This document shows, one piece after another, positions 1 through 64,000 of a DNA stretch of 64,000 nt (positions are counted from its first letter, which is position 1; the number at the start of each line of letters is the position of its first letter). This DNA comes from Asterochloris sp. CNOR1. Taxonomy: Eukaryota > Chlorophyta > Trebouxiophyceae > Trebouxiales > Trebouxiaceae. Where the stretch lies: NCBI GenBank assembly GCA_963969365.1, contig OZ017762.1:62001-126000 (forward strand), in the 5' to 3' direction. The notes beneath the pieces are model-generated. The model had not been told where the DNA came from. It saw nothing but the letters and a program-made list of their open reading frames with translations, and ran no database searches. A program made the position numbers and the translations under genes.

Positions 1-3000
1 GGGCTGCAGCTGCCCCTGGCACCTCACTCGTCTGCCCCTCTGACACACTGTCGTGCGCAGAACGCCCTCACCCAACCCATGAGCCCTGCACACCACTGCC
101 ACCCACCTCGCGCTCCTTCTCAGCTGGCCCCTGCACGTGCAGCACCAGCTCCTCACGTGCATGGCGATCCCCCTCCAGCCGCTCAGTCTTGGCTGTACGC
201 TCAGCCATGTCTGCCTTCCCTGCAGCCAGGCATGATTAGGCTCAGCCTGCGCGGCAAGCTTGGGCATGGTCCCAGCCTTCTCAGTCCTCAGCCCAGACAG
301 CAAGCTCAGCCGTGTCTGCCCTCCCCGCACCCACAGCAAGCCGTCAACCAGCCTTGGCTGTGCGCTCAGCCAGCTGGCAGTATGTCCTGCCACAATTTCA
401 ATCCACCAATTATGCACCCTTGGACTGAGCCCTCGTGAAAGCACATTGACTCTAGGCTTGGTGAGTAGCTCTGTTGTGTCCACCTGCCATGGGGGAAGGC
501 AAAAGCCTCTGCAGCAAGTGTGGGCGTGTCAGTGCTAAGCGCAGGCGGCACGCTCAGCCAAGTGCGCTTTACCTGCACCTGGGGTGAATTGATGCTCAGC
601 TGTAATATTGCGGCACATGGTGCCCGGAAGTACTGATCCTAGGTTTGCTAAAAGAAATTGCGCAGCTGGCAGAGGCAGACTGCTTCTGTGTGCCCTGTGA
701 GGCTAAGCATCAATATGTAACACTCAGCAGAAGCTGCCAGCAGGTTGAGGACATGTTGCTGCAATATGTTGAGCTGGTAGCTGCAGCCCCTTTGCTGCTG
801 CAGTATGAGGTAACTAGCATGGAACACTGGACGTTCTCTACCGCAGTCAACATGCAGCACTCACATGCAGCGAGCAGCTTGGGAATATGCTCCTTCATCA
901 CACTGAGCTTGCAGATGAAGGCGTCCAGGATCCTGGCCAGCTGTACACGGTAGTCATTGGCCGTCAGCACGTCTGCCCGCCTCACGAAGATAACCTCCAC
1001 CAGGTTTAGCAGCAGGCGCACGCTGGTGCACTGCACGCTGACAGGCAGGCTGCCGTCATGTATGTTCCTGCAGTGCAGGCAGGCAGGTTCTTAGCAAAGC
1101 AGCAGGCACGTCAAGATATGCTGTACCCTGCCGGCTGCGGTGACGCATTCCTAAAGTACTGAGATGAGTGTGAGGTACTCCAAGTGAGTCTTGTATGCAG
1201 AATGGTCCTCCTAACCTCCGAAACCTCAACTGGAAGTTCCTGCAGCTTACAATGTTTTCAGCATGATGCATGCCTCCTATGAGTTCAGAGCCAATTCTGC
1301 AATCTTAGCAGACTACAACAGGCTGAGAATGCCTGTGCAGCATGAGGCTGAAATCTGGGAACACCCAAGAGATTGAACAGCGGGTGTGAACTAAGTGGCA
1401 GGCTGCTCAAGGGATGATACTGCAGTACGCTGCTTGTGGGTGCCTGGATAGCCAACTTGGTTCATGTGCCCATGACGTGGGGCAGCTGTTTGACAGCCCT
1501 TGCCAGCTCACCTGGAGAACATGTGGACAATGCGCGACAGCTGCCTGAAGTCAGGTCTGGAGCAACTTTGTGACAGCCCCTGCCGGCTCACCTGGAAAAC
1601 ATGTAGATGATGCGCGACAGCTGCTTGAGGGTCAGGTCCGAGCGCACGTGGTGCACCAGCTCTGCCAGCATGGAGAAGGCCAGCGGGCGCAGGGCCTCCT
1701 GGCACAGGCGACCCCTGCCCACCAGCACACTCTCGTCCAGCAGCAGCTCCAGCTGCCCATAGAAGCTGCAGGGCAGAAGGACGCAAGGCTTTGCAGCAAA
1801 CATGAATATTCATCAGGTGCGGAGTGGGACCAGCACGCCATCGTCCAGGAGCAGCTCCACCTGCCCATTAAAGCTGTGGGGAAGTTTCCATCAGCAGCTC
1901 CAGCTGCCCTCAGAAGCTGCAGGGAGTGGCATGGCAAATGCCCATGAGGCATCACAGTCTGCTACTGAGATTGAGGTGGGGCATTCAGGGGTCCCTCAGA
2001 GCACTGTGAGGACAGGGGCATGACTGAGTACAAGTGATGCAGTGGTGGCAGCCCAAGCTGTGCCTACAAGACACTGGGCAGAGCAGGCTTGCAGGGGTGC
2101 CTGGTGCAGGGCAAGCAGGCCTTCTGCATGCGTCAGGGAAGGGGATCCCATCCATGTGATGCCCTCAGAAGCACAGTGACGAGTGCTGCATACCTCTCCA
2201 AGCTCCTTCACAGGGCCTGCCACAACAAAGGTTGAGACCCTTACCTGCGGAAGCTGGCGCTCAGCATGTGGCGGGTGGCCACCAGCATCTCTTTGCGCAG
2301 GGACACCGTGTCTGGGCAGGTGCGCAGCAGGTGCACCAGCGCATCAGCCACCTGCTGCTGCCTGTCAGCGATCTGCAGAGCAAGGGATATTGCCCTAATG
2401 ACAGCTTCGGAGGAAGCAGGTGCACCTGCGTGTCAGCCAGCTACTGCTGCCTGTCAGGGAGCTGCAGCACACCAAAGGACATGCAATGCTGCACGGCATG
2501 ACAGAAATGGTTTGATGACAGTCATAACCAAAGTAGGCGCGTCAGCATGTGAGCCAAGTGCTGCGACATGTCAGCAGTCTGCAGCCAATCTAGTAACATG
2601 CTATAGAGTAACATGCTATTAAGCACGGCAAAGGAACTTATGTCTGACAACAGCCTCAGAGAGGGGAGGTAGATCAGCGTGTCAGACACCTGCTGAAGCC
2701 TCTCAGCAATCTGCCGGATGCAGAAGACCACATTATGATGCAGGTCACGGGGGGGCGGGCCTCTGCACAGCAGCTTTGGCAGTAGCTAGGCATTGCAAAG
2801 ACTGTGTCAGGCACAAGCACAACCTCATAATATTAGGAAGAGTGAAGGCTGCTGTGTGCCCCTGTTTGATATGAGCCTGCTGCCCCAAAGGGGGGTCCAC
2901 ATCATCCCTAACATTTATCTGTGTGCGCTGTACCCATGACACTTCTCCCTCGCACCACTCCTACCTGCTGGGGCAGGCGGCGCACCAGGTAGGTCAAAAA

Positions 3001-6000
3001 GGACACTGTCTTGACCTGGCTCAGCTTCAGGTCCACATGCACTGCCTGCAGGTGGTCTGGTACCTGTGCAGGCTCTAAGCCTGCAGGCAAAGGGAGCAGC
3101 GCAGGCTTCTGTGGGCATTCAGGCTTCAATTGCCAGAATTGGGGTAGGAAGGCGGCTTGTGACCGGGGGCACTGCTCTGCCAAGCAGGAACTGAGCATCA
3201 TCCCCCAGTCATTGGGTGCCAGAACAAGTAGAGCAGCAGGCATGCAATAGGACAGTGTATGATATGGAGGCGGGCACCCAGAAAGCATAGTTGTGCGGAC
3301 ACACCCTCATGCAGCAGGCAGGCAAGCTGCCACTACAGAAGGAGGGCGGTCAACCAACCATGAAGCACTGTGCCTCAGGCGACCCGACACTGCAGGAGGT
3401 GTTGCCATGCAGCACGGTGGCTCACCCTGGCTCCCCACAGAGTCCACCATGTAGGGCAGCAGCATGGGCACATAGGTGTTGATGTGGTGCTCATACAGGT
3501 TGAACAGGTACATCACTGCAGGCATCAGTTGGAAGGGTTCAGCATCAGCTGGTCATTCAACAGGCCCATTGCAGAGGCAAGCTCGTGCACATCGCAGAGG
3601 CAGGCAACATCACAGTTGACATACCAGCACAACTGAGTGCAGTCAAATTAGATCTGCTGCTGACAAGTCTGGCTCAAGCACAAACCGCCAAGTCAAGACA
3701 CAGGAGTAACGGTTGGCAGCTCCCTGCCACCGAAGAAGACGTTTGCGCCACCCATCAAGCAAGATGCGGGCACAACTTCAATCATGCCTGAATCAACAGC
3801 CTGTGTAGCCATGCGCTTGTTCAGCAGATTGTCCGGCACGGCCACTCACCAATGAGGGGGCACTCTGCCACGACCTTGAATGACCTGATGCTGGGGGCAT
3901 AGCTGAGCGCCACCGGCTGCGGTGGGTTGGCTAGCTGCTTGAAGTAGTGCTCGAAGGTGAGAGGAAATTCCATGTACACCTGCAAGGAAGGATGCTTTAG
4001 CTTGGCTCAATTTGGCTGCTCCAATCCCCAGACATGCCCTGTCCTGGCAAACCTGTAAACGGTGAGGAGCCACTGCCCGACAGGCAGTGAGTAGACAGTG
4101 CTGCAGTGCCAGAGCCGGTCTCATGAACACGCCAACGACAAGACAGAGTCGCTGGGCAGCAAGAGTAGACAGTGACGCCAGTGCCTCATGCATGTTTCCC
4201 CACAACAACACAGAGTCGCACAGAAGGGCTGCCACAGCACACAAAGGGGGCAAGGCAGTCTGACCACCCTGTGTGGGCCCAAAACGCATGAAGGCCCTTG
4301 AAGCTGGTGGTACATGCATGCAAAGTTTCACAGTCAGGGTCAGACATTCATTGCCGAAGGGCATTTGCCCGACTGCTGCCTTCGTGTGAAAAATCTGCTG
4401 AAAGGACCCCAGAGACAAGGCACCACATCAAGGCTGACACGTACAGCAAGAGGCTGCAAGCCCCCTTACCTTCTTGACAAACTCCAGAAAGGTGATGCAG
4501 GCGCCCTCCTCCTGTGGCTTGTAGGTGCGATGCACATCAAAGAAGATGTGGATGCACACCTGCAGCGTATCAGTGAGTGGTTCAGGGACATTCCGCAGCA
4601 GAGATTGTGCAAAGTTTGGGGACATGTGAAGGCTGCCAACCTGCAGGAACCAGTCAAGTATCTTGGTGCCTCTGGGTCATGCATGTGCAGCTTCTGCCCA
4701 CATTTGAAATGGTGACAAGCTGCTGACCATGCTGGGGCAGTGGAGCATATGTGCCACAGCCAAGCAGCATGAAGTTGCTAGCCTCCATCAGCTCAAAGCT
4801 ACACAAGACCAGGGCTGAGATCTCACCCCAAAGAGTGGCTCAACAAGCACCGGCAGGACAAACTTGCCAGAGAACTCTCCTCGTTTCTGAGTTGTGGCTA
4901 CACTGCGAGTGATGCCACAGATGAACATACCAAGGGCCAGTGCATGCGCAAGACTTATCAGGGCTTCAAATATGGCAATTGCCAGAGTTGGGGACAATCT
5001 AATGACCAGACATTAGCTTGGCTGTCACCATTACTGGACAGTCAGACTCACCAGAGCGTTCTCCTCATTGTCGCTCTGGATGGTGGCCAGCACCAGGCGC
5101 AGCAGCTCCGGGACGTATGGCCTCAGGCTCTCATTCTGGGGCAGGCGGTGCACCACCTCCACAATGATGTTGCGCAGCTTGTGCTCTACATGCGGGAAGG
5201 TATTGTCAGCGACAAGACATTTGCTGCATCACAGGGGGCCCTCCCAATACACAGCTGTTCTTTTGCAGGAAGGAGGCATTGCCAGCACACAGACATTTGC
5301 TGCAGCATTGCATGGGTTCCAAGCTGTGCAAGGCCAAAGGACGCAATGTTGTGCAGCTTGTGCTCTGCAGAAGGGAAGATGCTCTTAGTATGCAGGCCCG
5401 TGCTGCAGCAGCATTGGGACTCTTTTTCTTGAAGCACGTGCATAGTGACGTCGTGAAAACCTGTATTATGCACGTCAGAGGCAGCCTGTACACACACTAG
5501 CAGCCACAGAGGCCAATACAGCCCGAGTCAGTGCTGATCTGCAGAGACTCCTCCTGCTGCGTTGCCTTAAACGAGGTGAAGCACAATCTGTACTCCAGCT
5601 GATTCTGCAGCATGCCTGGTCTGCAAGGTGCCTCAATGCATCCGCTTGTTGAGGGGACATGCACCTTGCGAGGCAGCCTTGCCTGTGCCATGATGTCTGC
5701 AAAAGTACCCCAGCGTGGATGCTTCAAATCACAGCAGAGCATGGAACCCTGTTCACTTGGGCTGCTGCTGGTCTGCCATGGCACCCATACAGCTGCTGGC
5801 AGCCTGGTCCATGTGTCACTCACCAGGGGTGCTGCTGGTCTGCGGGGGCACCTCCTGCAGCAGCTTGATAAAGACAGGGAAGAAGTGGCGCAGGAAGTTG
5901 GCATACTCCGCCGTGTGCACGATCTCGATGGAGTCGCGCACTTCGTTGGCCAGCTCCACACGCCTCTCGATCCCTGCAGGTACAAAATGAGGTTCAGCTG

Positions 6001-10206: not shown

Positions 10207-28866
<18,660 letters not shown>

Positions 28867-47900: not shown

Positions 47901-48761
47901 CTTAGCACAGGAAGCACCTGCAGGGAGCGCAAGTCACGAGCAGCTGGTGCCTTCCAAGGTGGAGCACCTCTCTGTCACCACTGCTGGTGCCCAAAACAGG
48001 ATGCCCCACACCCTGCGTGCAGGGTGTGAGGGCTTAGCACAAGATAAACACCTGCAGGGTGTTGCAAGTCACTGTCAGCTGAGATCAGCTCTGGTGCTCA
48101 TCTTCCAAGGGCAGACTGCCGTCATCAGCAGCGTCTGCAGCTGCCAGCAAAGAGCATCTACATGCAGGAGGAGGGGCTCAGCGCCTGTGAGACTCCCTGC
48201 AGGCTGAGAGGCACAGTCTCGGGGAGAGCATCTATAGGACTGTGCGCTGGGAGCCTGCAGGCAATGTCAGACGGCACAACCTGAAACTTGTTGTGCAGCA
48301 GGAGGGGTTGGGCGCTCAATGCCTGCTGATGCAGGGCTGACAATGTTGCACGATCGGTTATGCCTAAGATGAGCTCCAGCAGCTTTTTGGACTCGCTGAG
48401 TCGCATCGGGGACAGGCACCCTGCCTGCTTGCCCAGCAGGGGTCAAGCCCGACTGTGTGCGTGATGTTGGCCTGACTTGAGCAGCTTGATTTACATCTGC
48501 TGCCACACATGGAGCTGCCTGGGGAGACCTGACCGGACCGCTCACCTAGGACAACAACATCCTTCCCACGAACGCCCACAGCCAATGTTCCTTTTCTCAC
48601 TGCTTCCAGTGCATACTCCACCTGGAATCTGCACCAGGTCACAGGCACAGTCCAGATCTGTTGTTCCTGGTATGCATCAGAGCACAGAGCAGCAGGTGAT
48701 GACAGACTCACAAGTGCCCATCTGGCGAGAAGACTGTGATCGCCCTGTCATAGCGAGACAT
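44959..48761 (-). CDS. PAD1: 20S proteasome alpha subunit, PSMA7/PAD (alpha4) type
   Basis: Structural alpha-ring subunit of the 20S core particle, gating substrate entry. Seven exons join in frame to 254 residues: 48761-48712, 48628-48546, 47771-47660, 46658-46564, 46356-46193, 45759-45649 and 45108-44959. The start [19 protein letters not shown] is the conserved alpha-subunit N-terminal signature, followed by [20 protein letters not shown], then [19 protein letters not shown], then [20 protein letters not shown], which points to the PSMA7/PAD type, and [15 protein letters not shown]. The C-terminus ends in a charged tail with [11 protein letters not shown]. Length fits (human PSMA7 is 248). 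Its 3' end faces PsaD with 182 bases between stops. Confidence 0.97.
46640..46995. repeat. PAD1: Three-copy acceptor-edge echo array in proteasome intron 3
   Basis: CACCAGCACTCTGCAG spans the acceptor of exon 46658-46564 (46650-46665) and is repeated exactly at 46820-46835 and 46973-46988. Flanking sequence is also shared (GCCTTGTC / GCCTTGCC / GCCTTGCT before it; ACATCAGCTGCAGCTGACAT and TCACCAGCTGCACTTGATGT after it in copies one and two). Spacing is about 150-170 bases. Confidence 0.9.
47865..48095. repeat. PAD1: Tandem duplication, about 130 bp, in proteasome intron 2
   Basis: ATGCCCCACACCCTGAGTGC with a following AGAGCTTAGCACAGGAAGCA block at about 47869 is repeated from about 48001 as ATGCCCCACACCCTGCGTGC, again followed by GGGCTTAGCACAAG and CACCTGCAGGG. 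Confidence 0.9.
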
Positions 48762-49113: not shown

Positions 49114-50117
49114 CTACAGAAGGCTCAAGTAAACGTCTGTCACGCAATGTGTACAGGGACTAAGCACTGCAATATGTGCCAGCAAGTATCTGTCATGCAA
49201 AGGAAGCTTCTCAGCCTTCCACTCTGCAATGAGCTCATGGTAGACCTCCCTCTCGTACTCTTCCTGCAGCAGATATGGACACACCACCAGCAGCAGGTAT
49301 TTGGATGTACGTGGGAGTCAGACAACAGCAGCCAACTCATCCAGCAATGGGAGGCTCTCCCCGTCTCAGTTTACTAGCCACTCTCTCATGGTCCAAGCTC
49401 ATCTTAGCAGCACACTGCCTGCAGAACTGGGCTGGGCCTCCCTCATGGCAACAGTTGAAACCTTTGACACAGGGTACCCAGGTCTGGGAGCCAGGGCCCT
49501 CCTGATCAATCCACTTCTTGCTGCACTTGCAACACTGCAGCCAATGGTGATACATGAATGGGTTGCAGCAGCGCTGGAGGCCTGCAGCAAGCTGCAAACA
49601 GAAACACACCTCAAGCTTCCACATCTCCCAATATGGCCCCTTCCTGTCAGGAGTGAGCATCAGCCTCCTCCACAATCTTTACTCCTGCCCCACCTCTGTC
49701 ACCCCCAAAGCTTTCAGCATTGGCATCAGCCTCAGCTATGGCAGTGGCAGCCCTGCTCCTCTGTAGGATTCAGCTGATGCCTCACTGAAGCTTGCAGAAA
49801 ACAGCCATGGACCAGAGCCACAGACCTCACACACCCTTTTGGGCTTCACATGCTCGGATTCACTGCCAGTGTCTCTGCCTCTCCTGCCCCTCCTTGCCTG
49901 TGGGTGCAACCGTTGTTCCTTCCGGCTGAAGCAGCACACAACCACGCCACAGCTGGTGAGCTGGGGCGGAGTTCCGGCATCCGCAGGGTAAACGGCCGAA
50001 AAATACTATAAGAGTAAGCTCAAGAAACCCCTTGGAGGTCCTGGGACTCGGGTGCGCTACCACAGCCACTACTAGTCGCGACAGCGTGCAGTCATACTGG
50101 GAGGGCCTTTCGACCCT
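49114..50117 (-). CDS. Unrecognised Cys-rich, CW/PHD-like zinc-binding protein, 3' part
   Basis: Five exons join without frame break: 50117-50061, 50005-49835, 49760-49694, 49581-49382 and 49263-49114 (stop at 49114). The fourth exon encodes a compact Cys-rich block (RCCNPFMYHHWLQCCKCSKK, then a tryptophan, then TWVPCVKGFNCCHEGG and FCRQC) whose WLQC-x2-C-x2-KW and following W-x2-C resemble a CW or PHD-type zinc finger. Before it lies a basic Arg/Gly stretch (QARRGRRGRDTGSESE) like an AT-hook or nuclear signal; after it comes an acidic amphipathic tail (EEYEREVYHELIAEWKAEKL). These traits suggest a chromatin-associated protein, but that is inference. Start codon and 5' exons (somewhere at 50.1-50.5 kb) are not identified, and the donor after codon ER (49382) is weak. 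Confidence 0.6.
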
Positions 50118-50911
50118 CTGCAGGAGAAGGTGCAGCACCTGACCTGGGGCTGTAAGCATGTGCCTGCACAGCAAGCATTGATGCTTGTGGAAAGGCTCGC
50201 ATGTCACTGCACACTGTGATTTCGCTGCAAATGCCTGGGAGCCCACAGTCCTGGCATCTTGCAGCGTGTCCTGTACTGCAGGCGACGGTGGTCCTGCAGG
50301 AGCTGACCAGTAGCGAGGCCAGCAGCACCACACAGGCTTTCTCGTGCAGGAGCAGGCTGTCAGGTCTCCTGCCCTCCCTACTGGAGTGAGTGGAGGTCTG
50401 CACCATGGGGCCCTGCTTTGTCACAGCCACTCTAAAGCTGAGGGCCTCAGCAACTCCTTGGGGCAGTTCTGTGAGGCATCAGAATGCATCTTGGTTCAGC
50501 AGTCCACTGACTGGACAATCTCAACATTGCATGCACATCATGCAGAGTATGGACACTGATAGATGCTCCACAGCTCGCTCAGTCTGGCATCACTGATCAT
50601 TCTGACTGCACTGATCAGTCTGGGAACACTGGCTGATCTGACTGCACTGGTATGCTGCAGAGGCGGTGCTGTGCGCTCACAAGGTGGCATCTCTGCAGGC
50701 CCTGGATGCCTGGAGGCCCTGTGTGTCCTGTCTCCTGTTTCACGCTTCATGACCTGTGTCATTTGGTGCAGTGAGCGACAGTGTGTGCAAGCGCCCCATG
50801 ATTGCGCCTGACTGGTGCCGGCCATGGGGCCATCTGTGTCCTCAGTTGCTTGGGCAGATGGAACAGCTGATTCAGCTGGTGAAGACAGTGGATGTCGTGC
50901 TCCTGCTGCAG

Positions 50912-51138
50912 GCCAGTCATGGTCACGATCCAGGAGGTCATTGCCAGCACTGGCTTGCCACCTGACAGCAGGCAGCGGCTCTCCAGGGTGATGCGCCAGT
51001 ACGGCTATGCAGAAGGCGATACGGTGGGGATAGAGGTGCAGAGGATGACGCAGGAGAGGCTTGAGGCAGCGGCGAGGGCAGAAGAGTTGGTACCTCCACT
51101 GACCTTGAGGGAAATAGACGCTCTGCTAGTTTCAGCAG
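50912..51138 (+). CDS. Exon of an unrecognised plus-strand gene
   Basis: A clean exon between a CTGCTGCAG acceptor and a GTAAGC donor encodes about 75 residues: PVMVTIQEVIASTGLPPDSR, then QRLSRVMRQYGYAEG, then QRMTQERLEAAARAEELV and PPLTLREIDALLVSAG. It is helix-rich and charged, consistent with a real protein, but I recognise no family. A possible continuation (51401 onward, DRLQHLGLAQAVPGGASDG) would keep frame with an acceptor at CACCTAG. Open stretches at 52295-52519 (plus) and 53023-53295 (plus) could be later exons of the same gene, but I cannot link them. Upstream at about 50590-50650 a short CTGATCA-TCTGACTGCACTG motif is repeated. Confidence 0.45.
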
Positions 51139-53750
51139 GTAAGCGTGTGATGATTGAGAGGAAGTGGGCACCCCCCATGACAACCTCTGGGAGCACCATG
51201 CAGAAGCTCAAGTTTGCACAACAGTGGAGTCACGGATGTCAGCTGGTGCTGCTGGCCTTGCACAAGATCAGACAACTAAGTTGACCCCACCAATTTGCCT
51301 CACAATGTAGGACATGATGCGCCTGCCCTGCCATGCCACACAAATCACCACTAAGTTCCTGTCTCTGCTGCACACAAAGTGTTCTGTGCATCACCTAGAC
51401 AGGCTGCAACACCTAGGCCTGGCACAGGCAGTGCCTGGTGGTGCATCAGATGGTGTGCACATGCACACCTCCACTCGCAGTTGTGTGAGGCCACCTGCCT
51501 GGCGCAGATGTGAAGTGCTAGATGTGTCAGCCAGGGGATACTGAGGTAGGGATTCTTCTAGGCTTGCAGAGCCTGTTTAACAAGCAGTTTGAGATAGGTT
51601 TTCACATGTCCCCACCTGCCATACTGCCTGTGCCAGCGTCTGCGGGGCCCATGCTCCTAGCCCTGCCCACGCTTCAGCACCTGATGCTGGGTGAGATGAC
51701 TGACTCAGTGGAACATCAGCAGCATGTTGTGCTGTGCCGTGCCTGTCGCAGCTTGGATGCTTAAGACTAGCCAAGGTGATTTTCTGGTGCTCTGCAACAC
51801 CCAGCAAGCTAATGCCACCCTGCCGCCAAGTTGCTGCTGGATGTCGAGCTGACCCTATTTCTGGAACTGTAAAGAGAGGCTGACGTCACTCAAGCTTGAG
51901 AGAGCAATGTGAAAGCAAGAAGGGTAGAGCTTGACAAAATGCAAAACTTGACAGATTCTCACCGACAGATTTTGTGACTGTACGTCCACACAGGGGCAGA
52001 GTCGTTGGGCATGTACAGAACAAAAGTGGGGGGCCGAGGGATCAGACAAACAGAAAACCAGTCAAATGCAATCTCAGGGGGCAGCAATATCACCTCTCTG
52101 AACAGTACAACAGCATCTGCAATGCGTCACATGATGGCGCACTGCAGCTTGGTGGTGCAATTGCAGAGGTACTGGAGTTATGAGGTGGGCTGCTGCGACC
52201 TTCATGGACAGAGCTGTACTTGAATGGCAGCATTAAGAGCTGCCCTGACAGAGGGCGCCTCCTTGCTGCTACTGCATCAGGCAGCATATGTTGAGTGGAT
52301 GCAGAGCACTGCTCATTGACAACTGTGTTCAGCGAGGGGGGTACTGGCTTACTTCGAAGATGCACTATCAGCGCCGTCGTCACAAATTTCAGCATCCAAT
52401 GGCGAGGCCGGGCTGCCCATCACCTGCTGACCTTGACGGTGCGCCTCAACGCTTTTCACTGGTGTGTCACTGACAGTGACCTCAGCTGGGAGATCGATGA
52501 CATGACGAAATTCGATTGACTGTGAAACTCTCACGTGTTTCAAGTCAACAGGCAAACACTCGCTCCAACTTCTTGAAGGAGGTGTAATGTGCTTCACATG
52601 TGTTACTGCCATTACGTTGCAGTCAGCCTAGAAAGAAGCCAGGCCCACCATTGTCATTCACTGTTCAAAGTTGGATTGGATATGTATCCAAGCATGATCT
52701 CAAGCAAATCATCTGGAATCCTTCTGAGACTCATGAACACTGACAGTGAACGTCCTGGGCACAGAAGGCAGCATGCTAGCCCAGCCAGCCGCACCTGAGT
52801 AGGGAGGGAGGCAGGCCACAGCTTTGAGCAGCTGATCAGGCAGATCTGTGTGGCCGCAGGCCTGCAGCACGGCAGAGGTAGGGCAGCAGCAGTTTCACAC
52901 AGCAAGATGTAGACCTGATTGTTTTTGCTGCTGACTTTCAGACTTCTTGCTGCAGCCTGCAGCCACATTCAGACGTTGCAGGTCGAGCACACTGAACACA
53001 AGCTTCACGCACAGGCTGGTTAATGTCATCTTTTGCAGGTTGTCAGTTCGTATTGCAGCTGACAGGAAGAGCCCCCATCACAAAAAGCTACGTCAGTGCA
53101 ATCCAGCGACTGCCCTTGATTGTTGAAGCCGTACCAGAGCAGCAGGTCCTATGCCCTCTGTTGCGTGTGCTGCCAGCAGCTGCCATGAACCGTTGCTCTG
53201 GATACACACTGCTGGATGCCAATGAGCAGCCGCCCCTGACATTCAGCAGCATTCGCACAACTTCAGCTCAGGAAGTTGACAAGCCTCGGTTGTGACCCTG
53301 CTTGTACATGTCTTGTGTGCAGCTCCAGCATGCTCAGTGCATGCGCACCAGTCCTCTGCCACATGCAGGGGCTGACTGCAGAGGCTTTGACCGCTGTCAC
53401 AAGGTTGTCCAGAGAATTAGAACTCCAGTCAATACTGACAGGTCCAGCCCTGTGCCTGTCAAAGTTAGGATTTGCACAGCGTTTTTGCAATAGTTCCGCA
53501 GGCTGGGCAGTCCAGCAGGAGAGAGTCTCTACCCTGTTGACCTGGCATCCCCTTGCAGAGCATTGGTGTCACACAGATAAGGTGCCGTCTGCTTGGGTCT
53601 AGCAAGATGTTGGATGGCATTGACAGCCTTCAGTGGCGTCCACAGCACATCAAAATCACCAGGCTGTCAGCGTTATTCACACTGTCTAGCAGCAGATAAT
53701 GCAGCAGTACAAATCACTCAGTTTGGATGTGCACACAAGCGTTATGCATT
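51139..53750. other. Unassigned 2.6-kb region, probably exons and introns of an unrecognised gene
   Basis: Several open stretches (for example 51522-51764, 52295-52519, 53023-53295, 53370-53490, all plus) look protein-like but overlap minus-strand alternatives of similar quality, such as 52349-52612. I recognise no family and make no gene call. The left end of G6PDH's 3' UTR should lie just below 53751. Confidence 0.3.
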
Positions 53751-56700
53751 TCAGAGGGCGCTTGTGACACTGGTCTGCGACCGTGGGGACCAGACGTAGT
53801 TGGCGTTCTTCACAAACCCATTCCTGGCCACCAGCTCATCGGACTGAGGAGGCCCGCGAGTGCCATACTTGTAGGGCAACAGGGGCACCTCACCCTTGTC
53901 AATGGCGTGCAGCAGGGGCGTGAACACTGCCCAGGCTGCCCGCAGTTCATCCCTGCATGTGGGCAGCAAAAGTCACAAAGCGCAGAAAGTGTACCATGTG
54001 CAAAATGCATGTTGCAGAGATAAAGCCCATCGTAACCCGCAATCCGGCAGCATGGGTCTGTTGGAGACCAGGGACGGTCAAATTGCAGGGTCACCCCTGC
54101 AGCATATGAGAACCTGCTGTCTGCCCTGAATCCAGAGCAAGCCCCCCAGTGCGCCCACCTGCGCACAAAGTGTTGCTGGTCGCCGCGAATGGCGTCCAGA
54201 ATCAAGCGCTCGTAGGCCTCAGGGATGTGAGTGTCCCCATACCGCTCCTTGTAGGTCAGGTCCATCTCACTGACCACAGGGGTGGCCTCTAGGCCAGGCT
54301 TCTTGACCACCTGCATCAGTGGCACATGTAAATTTAGGTCAGGTCCATCCCACCAGCCACAGGGGCAGCCCTGCTTGTTGAATTACCTGCATGCGTTGAC
54401 CCAATCTTGCTTCAATGGTCTTGCTACATAACACTCTGTGAAAGTTGAGAGGCCTCTCTTGGCACGGTCCAGACTTGCACTACAGCTTTGCCTGGCTGTT
54501 TCAGGTCACCTTTGTGGTGCTGTCGCTGCAAGCAACTGCAAACAGTAGCAAATGAAATGTGCTTGTACTGCGGAAAGGAGGTCTGCACATCTGGCCAACA
54601 GTAGCCGTATTGCAGGTTCTGCAAGCTAAACAGCGCCCCGTGCACGTCATGGCCCTGTATTGGCGAAGCCCAGTCCTCACTCACCATCTTCATGTAGACC
54701 GCCTCGTCGGGCTGCAGGCGGACCACTAGCTCATTCCGCAGGCTGTCCAGATCAGTGTTCATGTCTGCCGCTGGCGGCTTGAACTGGATCCGAATCTCTG
54801 CCTTGCGCTCGTTCAGCGCCTTGCCTGCCTTCAGGATGAAGGGCACGCCGTGCCACCTGCAGGTTGCATAGAGCAGTCCGTTAGAGCAGAAATGCAATTC
54901 CTAGCTAGTGCAGTAGAAGGCTGGGTACCAGGCTGGAGAGCATGCGAAGTTGTGAGAGTCACCTGCATGCCTGAGGCCATCAGCATGATACCATGACACC
55001 CAACTGTATTACGTGTTGAAAAGATGCACCAACATGCAGTCCTGCTCAGTGACGCCTCGCGCACACCTCCTGAACCCCCAGATTGTGTCTGAACAGGTCT
55101 CAGGCCCACCTCTCATTCCTGATGTGCAGCACGCAGGTGGCAAAGGTGGGCGTCTTGGAGTCGTTGGGGACGGTCTCGTCCTCCAAGTACCCTGGCTTCC
55201 CCCCAGCAGCTGCGTACTGCCCCAGGACAACTTCCTCAGCCCTTACTGGGGGGATGCACCGCAGCACTTTGACCTTTTCGTCGCGCAGGTCATCTGCGCG
55301 GTTGGACACGGGCTTCTCCATGCAGATCAGACTCAACACCTGCACACAGGGAGGGAGGGTGTCGATGGAGTGACAATTGGCACTGCAGTCATGCCGACAC
55401 AGGATGTGACTGCCCATTGCACAGGTGGCCCACACAATTGGAGATGACGTTCCCCATGCAGACTAGACTCAGGTCCTGCAGCCAGGATGTGGGAGCGTGA
55501 TAGAACAGAACTGCCTATTGTGCAGCTCATTTGCCCAGCTGCCCCAGGCTTCTGCATGCAGATGACACTGTGCACCTGCAGGAATTGGAGGGGAAGTCAG
55601 CCTTTGCAGCACCTTGACTGATGGTCATCCCAGTCATGCCCTTGCCTCTTGTGTATGCATATTGCTGAACAGCCAACAGGTGCACTTGGGCAGCCCCAAG
55701 CCTCTACAAAGTTGATCTGCATGAATTGACTCTGCATGACGTCTCGGATGCAGTAGATGTCACCCTAAGTTTGGCCATGCCTTGCGTGTCAGGCACCTAG
55801 CTGAGCAGCAGACAGGTGTGTGCATGGGCAATTACAAGCCTCTACGATGAAGCGCTGACCTGCATCAGGTGGTTCTGCATGACGTCCCGGATGATCCCAA
55901 ACTCATCAAAGTAGCCGCCGCGTCCCTCCGTGCCAAACGGCTCCTTGAAGCAGACCTGCACGTAAAACACGCCACAGCTCAGACACAGCAGGCCAGGCTT
56001 TAATCGCTCATTTTGCTTTCACAACCCTCCAACAGAGCCTCTCCTGCACATCCATGGCAGGGCTGAGCTTGTCTTGTATCAGACTAGAAGCCGCCACACC
56101 CCTCTGTCCTGTAAGGCGCCTCATAGCAGACGTCAACAGGCGCGATACTAGTGCTACAGCCAGCCTTGATGACCCTCAACATCCAGCAGCCTGAGCCAGA
56201 ATTTCAAAACCCACATTTCCCCACCTCTGCTGTCTAACCAGAAGCTTGCACGGGGCAGGGCACTGAAGATGTGCTGTATGTTTCACATGACTAAGACAGC
56301 CAAAAGCCTTAGCTTACCAAGTCAGGGCCGACCCACACAGCATGCCCTTCACCTAGCAACCCGCTCAAAATGCCTGAATGCCGGCAAGGCGCTGCACGTT
56401 CACATGGGGCTGTGCGCCACACCTTGAGTTTTACATTCTCAGCTGCCTCCCAGTGCTTTGGCGCTGCCACCAAGACCCCAGCCTCGAGAGGCGCAAGCCC
56501 TGGCTGCAAACCCCCATGGACACAGCTTGTTTCTGACAGACTCCTTCCCTGACATGAACACTGCTGCCAGTTGCTTGACACTGCCTGACAGCAGGGCCAG
56601 GCATACGGCCCCCTGGATCTCTCACACATGCGCCCAAAAAACATGGATTTGTCACACACCTGGACATTGGAGATGTGCTGCGCGTTCCACATGGGGCTGA

Positions 56701-59700
56701 GAAAGCGATTGGAGAAGCGCATGGTGATCATGTTCTGCATCATCTCTTTGCCAAGGTAGTGGTCAATCCTGCACGCACGTGAAGCAGATGTCTTGCTGAG
56801 GCTGGACTGCCTCGACCCAGGTAGCACTTCATCCTGCAGGAGTTTGTTCAGCTGCTCAAGCGAGCATGTGCTGCATAGTGAGGGCAGCGTACTCCTCAGG
56901 CAGCCCTGTCGGGCCGCCTGGAAGCAGATTGCCAGCTCCCTCTGCATGTCTCGCTCAGCAAAGCAAAACAGCACAGGCGCTGCACTGACAGCAGCAGTAT
57001 TGATGACCCAATGCGGAGCAAGAAGTGCAAGCTGCCCTGCTGCTTCACTCTGGCAGCAGAACGGCACACAACACCAGCCCTACAGAGCCATGAAAGAAAA
57101 GATAATAACCCGCCGCTCCTCACCGGTACAGGCGCTCCTCAGGGAACAGCTCATTGATCTGCTCTGCCAGCTTTTCGGAGGACTCCAGGTCCTGCAGCAG
57201 TGCACGGGTGAGCATACACAGGCCGCAACCAGCCATGCTGCCAGAGGGTTGCTTCTTTGCATCACTCCACGCAAAGAAGTCCAGTCTCATCATAAGCCCT
57301 GTAGATAGGGGCATGAACAACTCCCAACTTGTACAGCCAGCCTTCTAGAGGACAGCAGGTCCTGCAGATGCAGCACAGTCTTAAGTCATATTGCGTAAGC
57401 CCTGCAGCGTCACCAGCGCTACTGGCCATTGATTGCTGATCCTGCAGATGGGGTCTTTTGGAGCAATGTACAGCAACTCTCGAAGAAAATGGAGGGCCAA
57501 GGAGCAGCAGGAATGTCTGAGTCTGCTCCAATGAAGACTGCACAGCCCGGGAGCACGGCACTCAGGCGAATAAAGGCTCTACTGCAATGAGCACTGAACA
57601 TCACCACCCTGTCCGAACAGTATCTCGATGACCATTCAACACCACAACACATCTCAGCATGCACAGCCACTTGGCAGCACCACTGTGATAAAGGCTGATC
57701 TCTGACAGCCCAGACCCTGTAGCTCCGACCGCATGCGAGGACATCAAACTAAACATCGCACACATGTTGCCAGAGGGCTCAACGACTACCCAGAGCCTGC
57801 AAACAGCTCAGCAAACACAGCCCCCTCCCACAGCACCCACTGCGCCATTGGGCTTCTCTCTGACAGCCCAGAGCCCGCAGCCCCAAGGGGATGCAAGGGG
57901 AGAAGAGGAAATGCACACACCTTGCCAAAGGGCTTTTCAATGACCACCCTGAAGAAGCCCTTGCTCTCGTCGCGCTGGAAGCAGCTGTCATGGATGCCCT
58001 TGCAGACCTGCAGAGAACCCACTACACTGAGTCATCCCACATCTCAGGTAGACATTGACCGAACCAACAGTTTGTCTGCTTGAATGCTGGATAGATCGCC
58101 AGCACAGGCCATGACCTGTGCAGGTGGCTGCCACCAAGTGCCACACAAGCCAGCCGTCCAGGTAGCAGCTAGACAAGCAAGGGCTGAAAAAGCAAATCAA
58201 CTCCACTCAAACCATGCTGCTGCTGGCTGCAGTGTTCCAATCTGGCCATGGCGCACCAGCAGAGCTCATCTGGGTTGCACTGAGGGGTGCAAGTCGAGCT
58301 GGGTGCAAGCCACATCAGCCAAAGCCCCCTCAGGTAACCCCAAAGGCCAGCTCGCACAGCAACTCTTGACACAGCAGCTCACCTGGGAGTACCCAGAGGA
58401 GGGAAAAGCAAGGCAGATCAGGCCACTGCTGAGAGCAGTGTCCAGTCTCGCTGACACGCAGCGGGTCCACCCCAAACTCACCTGGGGGTACACCGAAGGG
58501 GGCAGTGCAAGGTAGAACAGGCGGTGATTTTTGTCCCCTTTCTCCTGCTCCTCCAGCGCTTTATTCAGCTGCAGACAAGTGTGACATGGGTTGGCCCTGA
58601 TCTCAGGTCCTACGCGCTGCACCCCTCTAGACCAGAGATGCCTGTGCAAAGCATGGTGTCCAGCCTCCACTGCAGGAGCTTTGCTGGGGCCCCTTAATAA
58701 CTGCAGGGCTTGCTGCCCGAGCGCATGACAGCTCCCCCAGCGCTTTGTCAGCTGTAGGCAGCCGTGACATGGGCTGGTTCAGGTCAAATCCTCTGCTCAT
58801 TTGTTTTGCTGGACACAGCTGTTTCGGTTATGTGTCCACCTGCAGGCAGTAGGACTTTGGCTGTTATGAGGAGTCCGCTCTGATGGTGCATGCCTTGTTG
58901 CCTGAGCACATACTCCCCCAGCGCTCTGTCCAGCTGCAGTCAGCACGGACATGGCATTTGAAGGTGCCTCAGTGCTGCAAGCTCGCTGCCTGAGATTTCT
59001 CCTTGTCAGTCTCCTCCAGCACGTTTCTCAGCTGCAGGCAGCAGCAACACATATCGTCAGAGATATCCTCCAGCAGCAGTTGCCAGGGGGCAAGCCTGCT
59101 GAGAGGCGCCACTAAGGTGCTTGCTCCTGAGCTTCGCATGCGCCAACGCAGTACCTCAACAAGGGTTGCACAGCCTCATTGCTGCCATATGAGACGCAGC
59201 TCTGTGCGCACGCCTTCAGCACCTCTGTTCGCTGCAGCAGGCGGGCACTTGAGTTGGGGTCAGCATGATGCACCGCTGCTGCACAGCAGATGCATGTTGC
59301 CCTGCTTCAAGCGTCCTCCCTGTCACCAGCGGCAGCCACACACTGCTGGCCAGCAGATGCTGCCTGCGCCAGCACTGGCCCGCGCATGCAGAGCTCTCAG
59401 AGCACAGGCCCTGCAGTGACTGCATCCAGCTGCAGCTGACAGTGAGAGCAGGTCAGGAGTGCTGCAGAGGTATAACGTGTCCTGCCGCGAGGGGCTGTGG
59501 CAGGTGCTTCTGGCAAGAGCCTGCATGCACTGGCACTCCCTGAGCGAGCAGCCCTGTGACGAGCACCTGCCACAGCCAGGGCAGTCATCATGCTGCTCAG
59601 CACAAACAGCCCCAGCATTGGCCTAAGCTCACGTCGCGGGCCCTCAGCAGACTGAGCCCTGCTCTGCTGCATACGCCATGACCATTGCAGCCAAGGTAAG

Positions 59701-60395
59701 GCATGCAGACCACGTCACAACTGCCTGTGCTTTGCTGCAGTGACCAGCAGGTTGATTAAAGGCGCCACTCAGCAGGAGCTGCAGACGCCATCATGGTCAG
59801 CGGCAGAGTCGAACATGGTTGGTCAGGGTCAGCTGCTCACAGCACGGTTGCCTCTGCCCAGCTGGAGACCTCAGCAGCCCGTGTGAGAGATGTTGCGCCG
59901 CAGATGCAGACTGTGGTGCATGCGTCATCACTGCCTGAGCCCATGCGACGCAATTGACACCCCCTGGCCTAAAGACAACTCAAAGGCTGCAATCCTGGAC
60001 ACGGCACCATGGCCTGAGGTGCACATACATTGGAGGAAACCCTGGGCATGAACACACAATACAGGGCTCACCTTCTGGTAGCCCTCTGACCCATCGTACT
60101 GCCCAGCAATGTACTTAATCTTGGAAAGGAACTCATCCTGGTCCTTGCCCTCGCCAATGCCTGGCTTGATCTTCTTGCGCAGATCATCATCACTCAACTT
60201 GCTTCTCGCATATCCAAAGATGAGTGTGTCCTCCGGCAGGAACCTGCAGACGGCTGCCAAAGGTGAGATGCTGGACCACATCACAGCATGCATCGCTGAT
60301 GTCACTCACCCCCTCTCAAATAATGTGTACAGGGCGGGGAATGTCTTTTTCTTTGCCAAGTCCCCAGATGCCCCCAGCACTATAATCGAGAGCAT
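53751..60395 (-). CDS. G6PD: Glucose-6-phosphate 1-dehydrogenase, cytosolic type
   Basis: First enzyme of the oxidative pentose phosphate pathway; makes NADPH and 6-phosphogluconolactone. Eleven exons join in frame to 486 residues: 60395-60310, 60243-60072, 58568-58482, 58007-57921, 57191-57124, 56768-56660, 55955-55860, 55339-55110, 54856-54685, 54310-54159 and 53952-53751. Landmarks: NADP-binding [32 protein letters not shown], the active-site RIDHYLGKE (first residue split across an intron) with catalytic histidine, [20 protein letters not shown] and [14 protein letters not shown]. It lacks the Cys-containing N-terminal extension of redox-regulated plastid forms, so a cytosolic role is inferred. 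The ATG at 60395 places GASGD only 7 residues from the N-terminus, about 30 fewer than in most homologues; a small upstream exon or an in-frame extension back to a CTTAG-like acceptor near 60434 cannot be excluded. Confidence 0.96.
55310..55890. repeat. G6PD: Acceptor and donor echoes in a G6PDH intron
   Basis: Acceptor edge of exon 55339-55110 (CTCCATGCAGATCAGACTCA then ACACCTGCA) recurs at about 55452-55485 (CCCATGCAGACTAGACTCAG) and 55549-55580 (CTGCATGCAGATGACACTGT). At the other end of the same intron the donor region of exon 55955-55860 (TCTGCATGACGTCCCGGATG at 55871) is echoed near 55728 (TCTGCATGACGTCTCGGATG). Confidence 0.85.
57600..57960. repeat. G6PD: Donor-edge echoes of the EKPFGK exon in G6PDH
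   Basis: Donor edge TTGCCAAAGGGCTTTTCAAT-GACCACCCTG at 57922 has a degraded copy at about 57768-57805 (TTGCCAGAGGGCTCAACGAC-TACCCAGAG) and a weaker trace near 57613-57640. Confidence 0.65.
58360..59040. repeat. G6PD: Donor echo and four-copy acceptor echo around G6PDH exon 3
   Basis: Acceptor edge CTCCAGCGCTTTATTCAGCT-GCAG (58551-58573, codons LNKALE plus the AG) recurs at about 58734-58758, 58914-58940 and 59012-59039, each keeping CAGCTG or CAGCTGCAG and, in the first two, GACATGG downstream. On the donor side CTCACCTGGGGGTACACCGA (58478) is echoed at 58380 as CTCACCTGGGAGTACCCAGA, so [13 protein letters not shown] has a ghost reading roughly [13 protein letters not shown]. Confidence 0.9.
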
Positions 60396-60551
60396 TGCAG
60401 TCTTACCAGCCAGCGTAATTATATTGACCTAATTACTAAATCCCAGGGCTGTTCACATCAGGCACAGGTGTCAAGAAAAATGGATCTCTCACTCCAGTGC
60501 TGCCTACAAGTGTTGTACATTCAGAACATTCAGAACATTCCCTCCCTCAAG

Positions 60552-63500
60552 TCACTTGCTGTTGTTTGTTTGTGCTGCAGTGGTCGGAGGTACAGCATCT
60601 GGATCATCATGCCGAGCGAAGCGCCCCCCCACACCTGCAACACAGTGTGCATGGGGATTGAGCACTCACCACATGTTAGGTGCAGCAGGACACCCCAGCA
60701 GGGAGCACTGATGCTGAGGCACAGCAGAGCATTCGGGCAAGACGCTCATACTCTGTGGGATAGCTCAGAATGTCATGGCCACGCATCAAAGCACCTTTTG
60801 AGCTCAGGCACAGCATGAAACTGACAAGGCAGCAGCGCCTTACGTTTACGCTTATCCGCCAAGTCCTTTCTGCACACATAGCTGATACGCCGAGAGAAGT
60901 TCCGGGCGTTGCGTTTCTGACGGTACCTGCACACGCCCAGACGTCTGTTTGTTCCCCTGAACATCGCGCATGGGCCCTTGCTTGGGACTGTCGCCCCCCT
61001 GACACTGCCTTACTGATGGTACCCCCTGATGGCCACCATCCTGTTGATCCCTCAAGCAGTGTGTGCTTGGGAGTGTCATCGCCAGGCATGTCCCCTTGCA
61101 GCTCTGCTGGCATGCAGGGGACTCTGCATGCTTGCAGGCTGCTGCCTCAAGCACCAGCCAGCTCCTGTTGATCCCTGAAACAGTGTGTGCTTGGGAGTGT
61201 CATCGCCAGGCATGTCCCCTTGCTCTGCTGGCATGCAGGGGACTCTGCATGCTTGCAGGCAACGAGGCCATGGGCACAGAACACAAAGTATATTTCACAG
61301 ACTGTGACCGGCGCTGCCTGCAGTGTCTGTGGGCCCAGCAAGGACGCTGCGCTCCTGGAGGGCTCCAAGATGTTCATTAAGGTAGGCCTGGCCTACTGTG
61401 AGCAGCCTGTGACCCAGAAGGCTGCCTGCTGTCTCAACCTCACAAGAGGCTGAGGCTTACTCCTGCATTGTGGCTGGTGTAGGTACCTGCTTATCAAGAC
61501 AATTATCTTGTTCGTTGACAAGGCAGCCCCCAATAAGCAGGACACACAGTGTCCCGCAGTCCTGGCGACCCCCTGCATGTGTTCGAAAAGCACCAGCCAG
61601 CTCAGCTGACACAGCACAGACCTCAGATTGACCTGCCCAGCAGCTGCTTGCTTGGAAGCTGCTCAACGGGACCACTGGCAGAGGCACAGCTGTATGTACC
61701 TTACAAGGTTTGCAAACTGCCAAATGGAGGCTGCTCCCCCCACCCGCTCCGTCCATCCAGACGAATCAAACCTCATCACCCTGGCAGACTGCTGCTGCAA
61801 AAGCTGCTCAGTCCCACCATGGAGCCCAGCCACAGGAGCCAAGCAGGGCGCCACCTCAACACCTTCGCAGCCTGCTGCTGCCCGTCAGCCCTCCCCTACT
61901 CACGCCACCTCACCCAGCCACTTCAACTCTCAGCAGGGCCCCACCTCATGACTTTGGCAGCCCTCTCTTGCAGAAACTCCTCACTCCTCCCATTGGGCCC
62001 CAGCGAGCTCAGCTCCAGGGCCGACCTGCTGCGCTGCATACCTCCCCCCGGGCCTTCAGAACAGGGCGGCGGCTGGCGATGCAGCAGCTGCGGCGGATGC
62101 TGCTGCTGGGGCTGCTGAAGCTGCTGCTGTGGCTGGAGGCAGCCAGTGTCCACCACGGCAGGAGGCTGGTGCCCAGGCACCTGGAAACGAAGCAAGGCAA
62201 TCAGATTTTGGAGGACTAGGCATCTGCAGGGACTGAATCTGCGCTGGGGCTGGAGGTGGCCGGTACCCACCACCACAGGGGCCTAACGCCCAGGCACCTG
62301 CAAGCGAAGAAGAAGAAGGAATAGAAGTTGCAAGGCTGCGCATCTGTTGGAGCTGCTGAGCTTGGGCTAGAGCTGGAGGGGGGTGGTGTCCACTGCTGCA
62401 GGGAGCCAAGGTTGGGCACCTGCACGGTAGTGATTAGAGATGTGACAAAGGCTGATCTTCACAAGCAGTGCTGAAGGGCCACGAAGCAAGCAAGTCAGGT
62501 GGGGACGTGTCTAAGTTTACCACTGCAGGGAGGGCGCCAGCATGGAAGTTGCTCGCATCTGCAGATGTGGCCTGCATTGGCTCCTTCTAGCGTAGTTCCA
62601 TGCACAGCACAGCTTCCAAAGCAAGACACCTGTCCTGCCCTGCAAAAGTTGACGACCAGGGCCCTTCATAACAGCTGGCCGTGACCATATGCTGCAAGGA
62701 GCTGCTACAAAAGTGATGCGCAGGTACCAGGCAGCCTCAATTCAGCTGATGTCTCAGCCTGCGCACAGGAAGCATTTCGCAGACAGCCATGATGTAGCCA
62801 CTTTTACCTTTGGTGCACGCAACAGGACACGCCAATATTTTTTCCCCAGATAGGTCAAGGAGTCAGCTCCTGGTGGCATGCTTTCTTGCCATTTAGTACA
62901 GGTTTCATAATCACCGCCCCCTGAGCAACTTCAACTGCCCCTGAGCATGTACGCCATCAGCAAGCCCATACTGCTTAAAGATGAGGCAGCTTGGTCCCTT
63001 GTCGGTGCCTGTAAACTTCCACGGCCTGCTGCTGGACCAGCGGAGGCGGTTGCAGGGACCCTGCTGCTGTGCATTGTGTCTGTTGTGGTGCACCGCACCG
63101 CCCAAAAGTCACCACTGCCCGCTGCTGAGCCATGGGGTGTTGGCTTGGGTCTGGTTGCAGCAAAGTCCAGCAGGCCTCTGATGAAGTGGAGCTAGGGCTA
63201 AGCAATGCCTCACGCTCACCATTGCCGCCTGCTGGGCCATGATGAGTGGCTCCACAGGGCTACAGCTGCAGCAAGCAGCCTGTGCCTGACAAGGCCCACG
63301 CCTAGTGCAACACACCAACCAGAACTCACCACCACCAGCTGCCGAGACAAGGGCGGGCCCATGAGGTCTCTGCCTGGAGGCGCTCAGAACTGCGCCACCC
63401 AAGGCACCACCGCTGCCTGCCACTGGGCCAGCCCCCCTGCGCCACTGCTGGGGACTCTTCCAGCAGCAAATTGCCTGGATGGGGCCACAGTAGCGCACTG

Positions 63501-63673
63501 CTTTGTGCTCACCATTGCCTGCTGCTGGGCCATAGGGGGCTGCTGCAGTGGTCCCGCCTGGAGGTGGAGAGGCTGCAGCGACCCAAACAGGGTGTCCCCG
63601 CCAACAGTGGAAGGCACTGTCTGGAACGGGGATGACGGCAGTTGCCTCGAGACCTCAGGTCCTAGTCTCGCAA
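60552..63673 (-). CDS. CCT-domain (CONSTANS/TOC1-type) protein, Gln-rich, 3' part
   Basis: CCT domains occur in plant and algal transcription regulators of light, clock, photoperiod and metabolism, where they mediate nuclear import and contact with NF-Y or DNA. Four exons are supported: 63673-63513, 62180-61945, 60926-60844 and 60634-60552; the last three are phase-consistent. Their junctions rebuild a full CCT motif: ERAAKVMR, then YRQKRNARNFSRRISYVCRK, then DLADKRKRVGGRFARHDD, ending 17 residues later. Upstream is Gln/Pro-rich (LQPQQQLQQPQQQHPPQLLH and GPLQQPPMAQQQAM), typical of activation regions. No B-box, response-regulator or GATA finger is visible here; such a domain could lie further 5', outside the window. 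Exons between 63513 and 62180 are uncertain because this intron is full of exon-edge echoes. Confidence 0.88.
61041..61260. repeat. 124-bp near-perfect tandem duplication in CCT-gene intron
   Basis: CTGTTGATCCCTCAAGCAGT at 61041 and CTGTTGATCCCTGAAACAGT at 61165 begin two copies that stay almost identical through GTGTCATCGCCAGGCATGTC and GGGGACTCTGCATGCTTGCA. This is among the youngest duplications in the window. Confidence 0.95.
61770..62430. repeat. Donor and acceptor echoes flanking the CCT-gene exon 62180-61945
   Basis: Donor side: the edge encoding EEFLQERAAKVMR (61945-61985) is echoed at about 61775-61825 (reading roughly EQLLQQQSARVMR) and 61855-61895 (QQQAAKVLR). Both lie in the intron that interrupts the CCT motif. 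Acceptor side: the edge encoding VPGHQPPAVVDTGCLQPQ (62130-62180) is echoed at about 62245-62300 and 62370-62420; the nearer copy has an in-frame stop, so it is not an exon. Confidence 0.9.
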
Positions 63674-63930
63674 CTGCAGTGTGAACACAGAGCATCAGGT
63701 GATGAGGTGGCATGGTGCCTTGCCTGCCTGTTGAGTGAAAGATTGCTGTCTGGAGTGCCCCCGATCTGGCTGCCTGGAAGTCCCAGGGCCTATCCCTGCA
63801 AGTGCACACGTCAAAATGAGTCCCTTGGTAGACCGATTGTGTGCTGAGTCAAGGGCGCTGTCCGGATGGGCAGAGGGTGCCTGAAGGCCTCAGGGCCCTG
63901 CCCCGTAACTGCACACAACAGCCAGACACT
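63100..63930. repeat. Donor and acceptor echoes flanking the CCT-gene exon 63673-63513
   Basis: Donor edge encoding PPMAQQQAM (63513-63540) is echoed at about 63213-63245 (reading roughly PLIMAQQAAM) and 63100-63135 (HPMAQQRAV). Acceptor edge (GACCTCAGGTCCTAGTCTCG then CAACTGCAGTGTG, 63652-63682) is echoed at about 63770-63806 and 63885-63925, spaced about 115-118 bases. Confidence 0.85.
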
Positions 63931-64000
63931 GTCAGAACAATGATTGCGGTGCCCCGAGGCCCAGGCCGCTCCAACTCAACACAGCAGCCGCCTTGAAGCT

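Follow-up and report, generated by a model that had tools for sequence, protein, structure and literature searches.

Local exon-end copies in the introns of a 64-kb algal window as probable remains of short tandem duplications

Why should an intron contain decayed copies of the end of the exon beside it? The question was raised by a stretch of 64,000 nucleotides from Asterochloris sp. CNOR1 (contig OZ017762.1, positions 62,001 to 126,000; hereafter the window), for which a first-pass annotation had proposed that introns next to well-defined exons hold same-orientation, decayed copies of exon ends together with the adjoining splice site and some intron. We refer to such copies as echoes. A search of trusted exon–intron junctions against their own introns revealed 33 same-strand exon-end copies in adjacent introns, at 22 of 102 junctions and within 1.5 kb, most of them including the neighbouring splice site and a portion of intron. 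None of the 102 junctions yielded a copy in any of three control targets (reverse-complemented, reversed and swapped introns), and the basic proposal thus stands. We consider it probable that the echoes are what remains of ordinary short tandem duplications, arranged head to tail, which occurred across introns and were filtered by selection.

The study covered this single window and hand-curated exons in seven genes. Judged by its sequence, the window is nuclear-type DNA from an intron-rich member of the green lineage. Genes were modelled with a simple exon–intron Viterbi model whose codon usage was taken from homology-confirmed peptides. Exons were accepted on PDB alignment or Pfam support, while zero-length, very short and homology-less predictions were removed by hand; the gene finder had predicted numerous exons of zero length at CAG|GT. 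The final set comprised 58 exons (one exon end corrected) with a median of 130 bases, and 51 gaps between neighbouring modelled exons with a median of 520 bases, some of those in the ABCC gene concealing unmodelled exons. Fourteen of the 116 exon ends were not trusted (seven in ABCC, seven at gene ends), leaving 102 junctions, namely 53 acceptors and 49 donors. Introns in the gene models are of the GT-AG type with the consensus CAG|GTGAGC at donors and CTGCAG|G at acceptors. As the first-pass annotation had held, the genuine copy of each exon end is identifiable, being fixed by homology to solved proteins or to Pfam.

Each query in the junction search consisted of up to 80 exon and up to 60 intron bases, and at least 10 exon bases had to be aligned. 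The junction itself was crossed by 30 of the 33 alignments, in some cases by 2–6 bases only, while three ended within the exon part. Junctions carried one to three copies, as had been proposed. Two other quantitative expectations were not borne out. The copy-to-junction distance, which could be mapped for 31 of the 33 copies, ranged from 80 to 463 bases and fell within the predicted 80–170 bases in only 16 of them, and divergence did not rise consistently with distance, the nearest copy being the most similar at only three of nine multi-copy junctions (the aligned lengths differ).

To place the echoes within the repeat content of the window, we used an ungapped local self-match search (match +1, mismatch –1.2, score of at least 18). 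It detected 90 local direct repeats (same strand, offsets 12–1012 bases), compared with none at offsets of 6–7 kb, one at 20–21 kb and no inverted match within 1 kb at the same score. Likewise, a blastn comparison of the window with itself gave no direct match more than 3 kb away at a score of 50. These controls bear on the trivial explanation that the echoes are chance similarities or low-complexity artefacts of a CTG/CAG-rich genome. The hexamer CTGCAG indeed occurs 224 times in the window, 1.8 times the first-order Markov expectation, and lends that explanation some footing; chance is nevertheless ruled out by the junction and offset controls, and we assign it a negligible probability. The repeats also lack the signature of a transposon, in agreement with the first-pass annotation. 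Transposons and introners were rejected since each locus repeats only its own sequence within the window, and assembly duplicates were rejected as well, the copies being 5–33% diverged at varied offsets.

For a rough baseline of repeat density we took 20 of 45 prokaryotic loci, 303,764 bases in all, which contained 140 local direct repeats (median 1.5 per locus), a set that is not a eukaryotic comparator and in which 90 of the 140 repeats fell in two Methanothermococcus loci. These 45 loci came from a genome-contig scan and were archaeal by title except for one ('bacterium'), none being eukaryotic. A search of the aldolase, ABCC, G6PDH and proteasome exon peptides against viral contigs returned no eukaryotic relative.

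How much of the introns do such repeats account for? Detected local repeats span 3,915 of 33,353 intron bases (12%); they occur in 24 of the 51 gaps between modelled exons, and exon-edge echoes in 17 of the 51. All three values are lower bounds, because decay hides older copies. The claim that introns are 'built from' copies was not confirmed. The repeats were grouped into 56 families, 15 of which lay outside the modelled genes and were excluded from junction counts. Among the remaining 41, the smallest offset was 40–230 bases in 36, and offsets overall ranged from 18 to 411 bases. Exon overlap of any kind was found in 22 of the 41, a count that includes two exon-interior families and one that reaches beyond the ABCC model at its end. 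When families split by indels were merged and all copies had to lie inside gene spans, a stricter set of 38 was left. Outside the modelled genes, a recent-looking duplication with a period of 124 and 95% matches was observed at 61039–61260.

Echoes were found at trusted junctions of six genes; coordinates and identities given here come from the junction search, and all echoes lie on the minus strand except where stated. The TRRAP/Tra1 fragment (865–5973, minus strand, nine trusted exons; PDB TRRAP chain 8xvg, E 8.4e-63) has five echo-bearing junctions. An echo of the acceptor junction 5185 (exon 5052–5185) lies at 5346–5378 (identity 0.85). Acceptor 2372 is accompanied by three copies at 2433–2482 (0.80), 2532–2584 (0.72) and 2667–2714 (0.79), and acceptor 1765 by two at 1829–1884 (0.82) and 1887–1924 (0.92). 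The copy of donor 1592 at 1478–1557 (0.84), 80 bases away, preserves the end of the exon, an intact GT and 34 bases of intron, and part of it was predicted as an exon (1512–1544); it is one of the clear cases, as are the acceptor 2372 array and the proteasome intron described below. The echo of donor 865 at 710–786 (0.68) has lost its GT.

Five junctions also carry echoes in the gene of an ABCC (MRP-type) transporter (11351–28354, minus strand; PDB MRP1 8vt4, E 5.6e-163), for which 19 exons were curated and some exons are missing from the model. Acceptor 24880 has copies at 24947–25035 (0.71) and 25044–25093 (0.80), acceptor 22280 a single copy at 22500–22567 (0.74), and acceptor 21004 two at 21086–21183 (0.75) and 21277–21344 (0.78). 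Acceptor 21737 is echoed at 21846–21881 (0.83) and again, with the AG lost, at 21897–21978 (0.72), and donor 24699 at 24542–24623 (0.67), with the GT lost. Two long gaps in the model, 18100–20378 (2,279 bases) and 26419–28211 (1,793 bases), may hold unmodelled exons. Since these gaps may hide exons, part of the repeat families scored as intronic within them may in fact belong to an exon edge.

The G6PDH (glucose-6-phosphate dehydrogenase) gene (53791–60386, minus strand, 11 curated exons; PDB 6vaq, E 4.5e-94) has echoes at six junctions. Acceptor 58568 is accompanied by copies at 58731–58777 (0.81), 58913–58954 (0.76) and 59011–59040 (0.83), acceptor 57191 by one at 57336–57367 (0.81), and acceptor 55339 by two, at 55438–55499 (0.73; predicted in part as an exon, 55434–55475) and 55522–55580 (0.75). 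Its donor echoes lie at 58378–58421 (junction 58482, GT intact, 0.77), 57703–57794 (junction 57921, GT lost, 0.71) and 55664–55750 (junction 55860, GT lost, 0.73). The proteasome alpha-7 gene (45049–48621, minus strand, six exons; PF00227, E 2.1e-56) has two echo-bearing junctions that face each other across one intron. Between exons 47,660–47,771 and 46,564–46,658 there are two copies of the first exon's end, at 47520–47556 (0.89, junction outside the aligned part) and 47401–47441 (junction 47660, GT intact, 0.78), and two copies of the second exon's start (acceptor junction 46658), at 46812–46888 (0.76) and 46970–46991 (0.95 over 22 bases).

Three junctions of the class I fructose-bisphosphate aldolase gene (36605–40099, minus strand, five trusted exons; PDB 7b2n, E 8.6e-93) have one echo each: the donor end of exon 39347–39476 at 39242–39282 (0.79, junction outside the aligned part), donor 37980 at 37874–37911 (0.79, GT lost) and acceptor 37110 at 37176–37249 (0.69). 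The first two aldolase exons were placed by PDB homology, and the other three by coding score and the expected aldolase sequence. The gene of glycosyltransferase family 92 (GT92; 32165–35350, plus strand, four exons; PF01697, E 6.2e-15) contributes one plus-strand echo, at 34108–34166 (0.75), of the donor end of exon 33702–33892, with the GT lost. The PsaD gene (41969–44265, plus strand, four exons by gene model and Pfam) showed no echo at its trusted junctions in the same search. A minisatellite with a 34-base unit, 5.7 copies and 90% matches lies off the junctions at 43,210–43,403, in the PsaD gap between exons 42793–42985 and 44147–44265; the junction arrays, with one to three copies at 67–95% identity, are unlike it. 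Thus, among the genes in which echoes had been proposed, TRRAP, ABCC, aldolase, proteasome alpha-7 and G6PDH were confirmed, whereas the CCT gene and the expansin-like gene were not. For the CCT gene, no Pfam domain at all was detected on either strand in 49,800–53,501 or 61,000–64,000, stretches such as 29–31.7 kb being outside the scan, and the expansin-like gene gave only a sub-threshold DPBB_1 match near 8.2–8.4 kb, where local repeats are present without a trustworthy exon edge.

Do the copies serve any purpose? They might have been retained through use as alternative donors or acceptors or as partial alternative exons, and the acceptor sites would fit this explanation. The AG is kept in 21 of 22 acceptor echoes, compared with a retention of 0.67 in 28 repeat pairs without exon sequence (binomial P 0.002), and several echo splice sites score as high as the genuine site. 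The donor GT, kept in three of nine mapped donor echoes (11 donor echoes in total), is in line with the neutral retention of 0.46 in the same pairs. We treat the over-retention of the acceptor AG as unproven, because near-threshold alignments favour an intact CAG (at a score of at least 24 the count is 12 of 13) and because TGCAG is well kept in repeats without exon sequence, where its CAG was retained at 61 of 69 positions (Fisher test against junction CAG, P 0.74). Moreover, differences between copy and exon are distributed over codon positions 1:2:3 as 89:73:100, showing no clear coding constraint. Only three of the 31 mapped copies combine an intact site with a preserved frame and no stop if the echo site were used, and such use would add 80–463 bases. 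Retention through use is very unlikely in our view, and conserved alternative coding exons were considered and rejected. As the first-pass annotation suggested, echoes could possibly act as spare splice sites for new exons.

Neutral tandem duplication sorted by selection would account for the pattern as follows. Short units would duplicate in tandem throughout introns, as well as where the window has no gene models. A unit lying entirely within an intron would be harmless; a near-complete unit of this kind, entirely between modelled exons, was found at 12,544–12,795 (period 125). A unit over one exon edge would be harmless when splicing still uses the site beside the intact exon, the extra exon end becoming intron. 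A unit within an exon or around a whole exon would alter the protein and mostly be lost. Such a filter would leave exon-derived copies that include an exon edge and sit in the intron, and with tandem duplication as the source, which adds to intron length, repeated rounds would make introns longer. The copies are local, same-strand and derived from their own locus, and exon interiors are largely spared: of the 38 families, a single exon edge is touched by 19, while 17 lie in introns only and two inside exons. None of the 38 covers a whole exon or two exons, and whole-exon duplication with both splice sites was rejected on this count. From these observations we infer that selection acted as the filter and that splicing kept to the site beside the intact exon, as well as the order of events. 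For the mutational source we argue by analogy: staggered double-strand breaks or paired nicks whose ends were filled in and joined are likely, given that small tandem duplications arise from fill-in at breaks (PMC8355091) and that new Daphnia introns with internal direct repeats have been attributed to repeated staggered breaks (PMC4202315).

Creation of the introns themselves by duplication of AGGT-bearing exon segments (the Rogers/Hellsten model) would also leave copies of adjacent exon ends within introns, and the splice sites CAG|GTGAG and CTGCAG|G are of a suitable form. In that model, however, the copied end of the upstream exon abuts the acceptor on the far side of the intron. At nine of the ten echo-bearing donor junctions (the exon after junction 865 being unmodelled), echoes end no farther than 274 bases from their own donor, leaving over 300 bases before the next modelled acceptor. 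With upstream exon-end copies not abutting the acceptor, we rejected this mode of intron gain and consider it highly improbable.

The more demanding question is whether duplication prefers junctions. The first-pass annotation had envisaged a tandem-duplication process centred on exon–intron junctions; of these two elements, tandem duplication is well supported and the centring only weakly. A mechanism can be imagined in which duplication is truly biased to junctions, for instance by breaks at transcribed splice junctions or R-loops, with introns growing from exon ends. Windows of 80 bases with a local copy were nearly as frequent inside introns (63 of 338) as at junctions (22 of 102), with exon centres at 2 of 49; the 22 junctions of this test overlap, but differ from, the 22 echo junctions, and intron-interior windows contain the copies themselves, which raises their rate. 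Repeat coverage within 15 bases of junctions was 14.9%, compared with 10.1% in rotated maps (P 0.044), whereas junction coverage relative to other intron gave P 0.19 in the rotation test. The coverage profile around junctions had no clear peak. On the acceptor side it was 0.19–0.21 within 15 bases, 0.15–0.17 at 100–300 and 0.10 at 300–450 bases; on the donor side it was 0.14 in the exon, 0.03–0.05 over the first 60 intron bases and 0.14–0.15 at 200–450 bases. By compartment, coverage was 15.2% in the outer 30 exon bases, 11.7% in introns, 6.0% in exon interiors and 7.9% outside modelled genes, where unmodelled genes may be present. The two top-scoring families in gene spans (12,533–12,764 and 43,203–43,403) touch no modelled exon, which also speaks against a bias.

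Several observations nevertheless weigh against purely neutral duplication across introns and in favour of a junction bias, among them the raised coverage close to junctions and in the outer 30 exon bases. The 19 exon-edge families among 38 compare with 8.2 expected from random placement of the matched segments, a number reached in none of 20,000 trials; at a threshold of 20 the count was 15 of 30 (7.4 expected, P 0.002) and at 24 it was 8 of 17 (4.7 expected, P 0.07). As matched segments are shorter than the units that were duplicated, we also used a unit-length null, a simulation with units, viability filter and decay in 24 settings. It expects 21–43% exon-edge families, compared with 50–54% observed. 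Under this null, 22 of 41 gave P values from <0.0001 to 0.12 (<0.05 in all but one of the 24 settings); for the stricter count, 19 of 38, they were 0.0001 to 0.25 (<0.05 in 22 of 24). Slower decay of exon-anchored copies lifted the expectation noticeably only with shorter past introns combined with slow exon change. The unit-length null narrows the exon-edge excess without closing the gap. As for the staggered-break parallel, significant internal repeats occur in 61% of new Daphnia introns but in only 16.2% of established ones (PMC4202315), and the parallel drawn above consequently concerns mostly new introns. Given small samples, missing exons and uncertain past intron lengths, an enrichment of up to about twofold at junctions is quite possible, while a truly junction-directed process is unlikely as the explanation of the echoes. 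A bolder scenario would combine frequent, mildly junction-biased short tandem duplication with duplicated acceptors that keep their AG and donors that decay, such that introns grow from their 3′ ends and leave intact, normally silent acceptors able to seed exons; this we regard as distinctly unlikely.

A selenocysteine tRNA gene speaks for an alga and against a land plant. One was predicted in the window by ARAGORN at 40676–40762 (plus strand; Rfam RF01852, bit score 76.3, gathering score 47), beside the aldolase gene. The top PDB match of the aldolase is a chloroplastic enzyme, and the PsaD domain PF02531 was found with an E value of 6.7e-62.

If neutral duplication sorted by selection is the right account, small tandem duplications can make the introns of an intron-rich gene longer, with the protein unchanged and readable fossils left behind. 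The echoes are also a trap for annotation: the gene finder called parts of two of them exons (in TRRAP and G6PDH, as given above), and such copies can thus cause false exons. Should the junction bias or the acceptor retention prove true genome-wide, they would offer a direct route to study the origin and silencing of spare splice sites.

How do these arrays relate to known systems? The first-pass annotation knew of no named description. Boundary-crossing duplications and intron lengthening by staggered breaks have in fact been published, whereas we found no paper on exon-edge arrays: no description of exon-edge copy arrays in introns under any name turned up in open-licence PMC, most subscription literature lying outside that search. 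Internal gene duplications are credited to Gao & Lynch 2009 in PMC4974935 and PMC3443670. In the potato RdRp gene, a tandem duplication across an intron–exon boundary formed a new intron (PMC4974935). As in that case, the duplication spans the boundary, and a splice junction is copied along with some exon and some intron sequence. Unlike there, the extra exon end appears to remain within the old intron, which has grown; this is seen as often as three times at one junction and at 22 of 102 junctions. Daphnia introns share the intronic direct repeats, which were suggested to make introns drift passively towards greater length (PMC4202315), but the new introns described there average 77.7 bases, compared with a median gap of 520 bases, offsets of 18–411 bases and many copies with exon edges in our window. 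The AGGT model (Rogers 1989; Hellsten et al. 2011; PMC3443670; Drosophila, PMC2891723) likewise has duplicated exon sequence becoming intron, yet here each copy sits next to the junction it came from and not across a new intron from it. Tandem exon duplications detected by Exonize (PMC12343006) are intronic matches to exons of the same gene, and the tool has a partial/inter-boundary class; in contrast, the echoes comprise exon ends only, with a whole exon in 0 of 38 families. Introner elements (PMC9860276) also form repeats inside introns, but are copied into many genes, whereas each locus here repeats only itself within the window. The echoes are a known kind of event; what is distinct is their local density, with one trusted junction in five affected, and that an old intron appears to have been enlarged and no new one formed.

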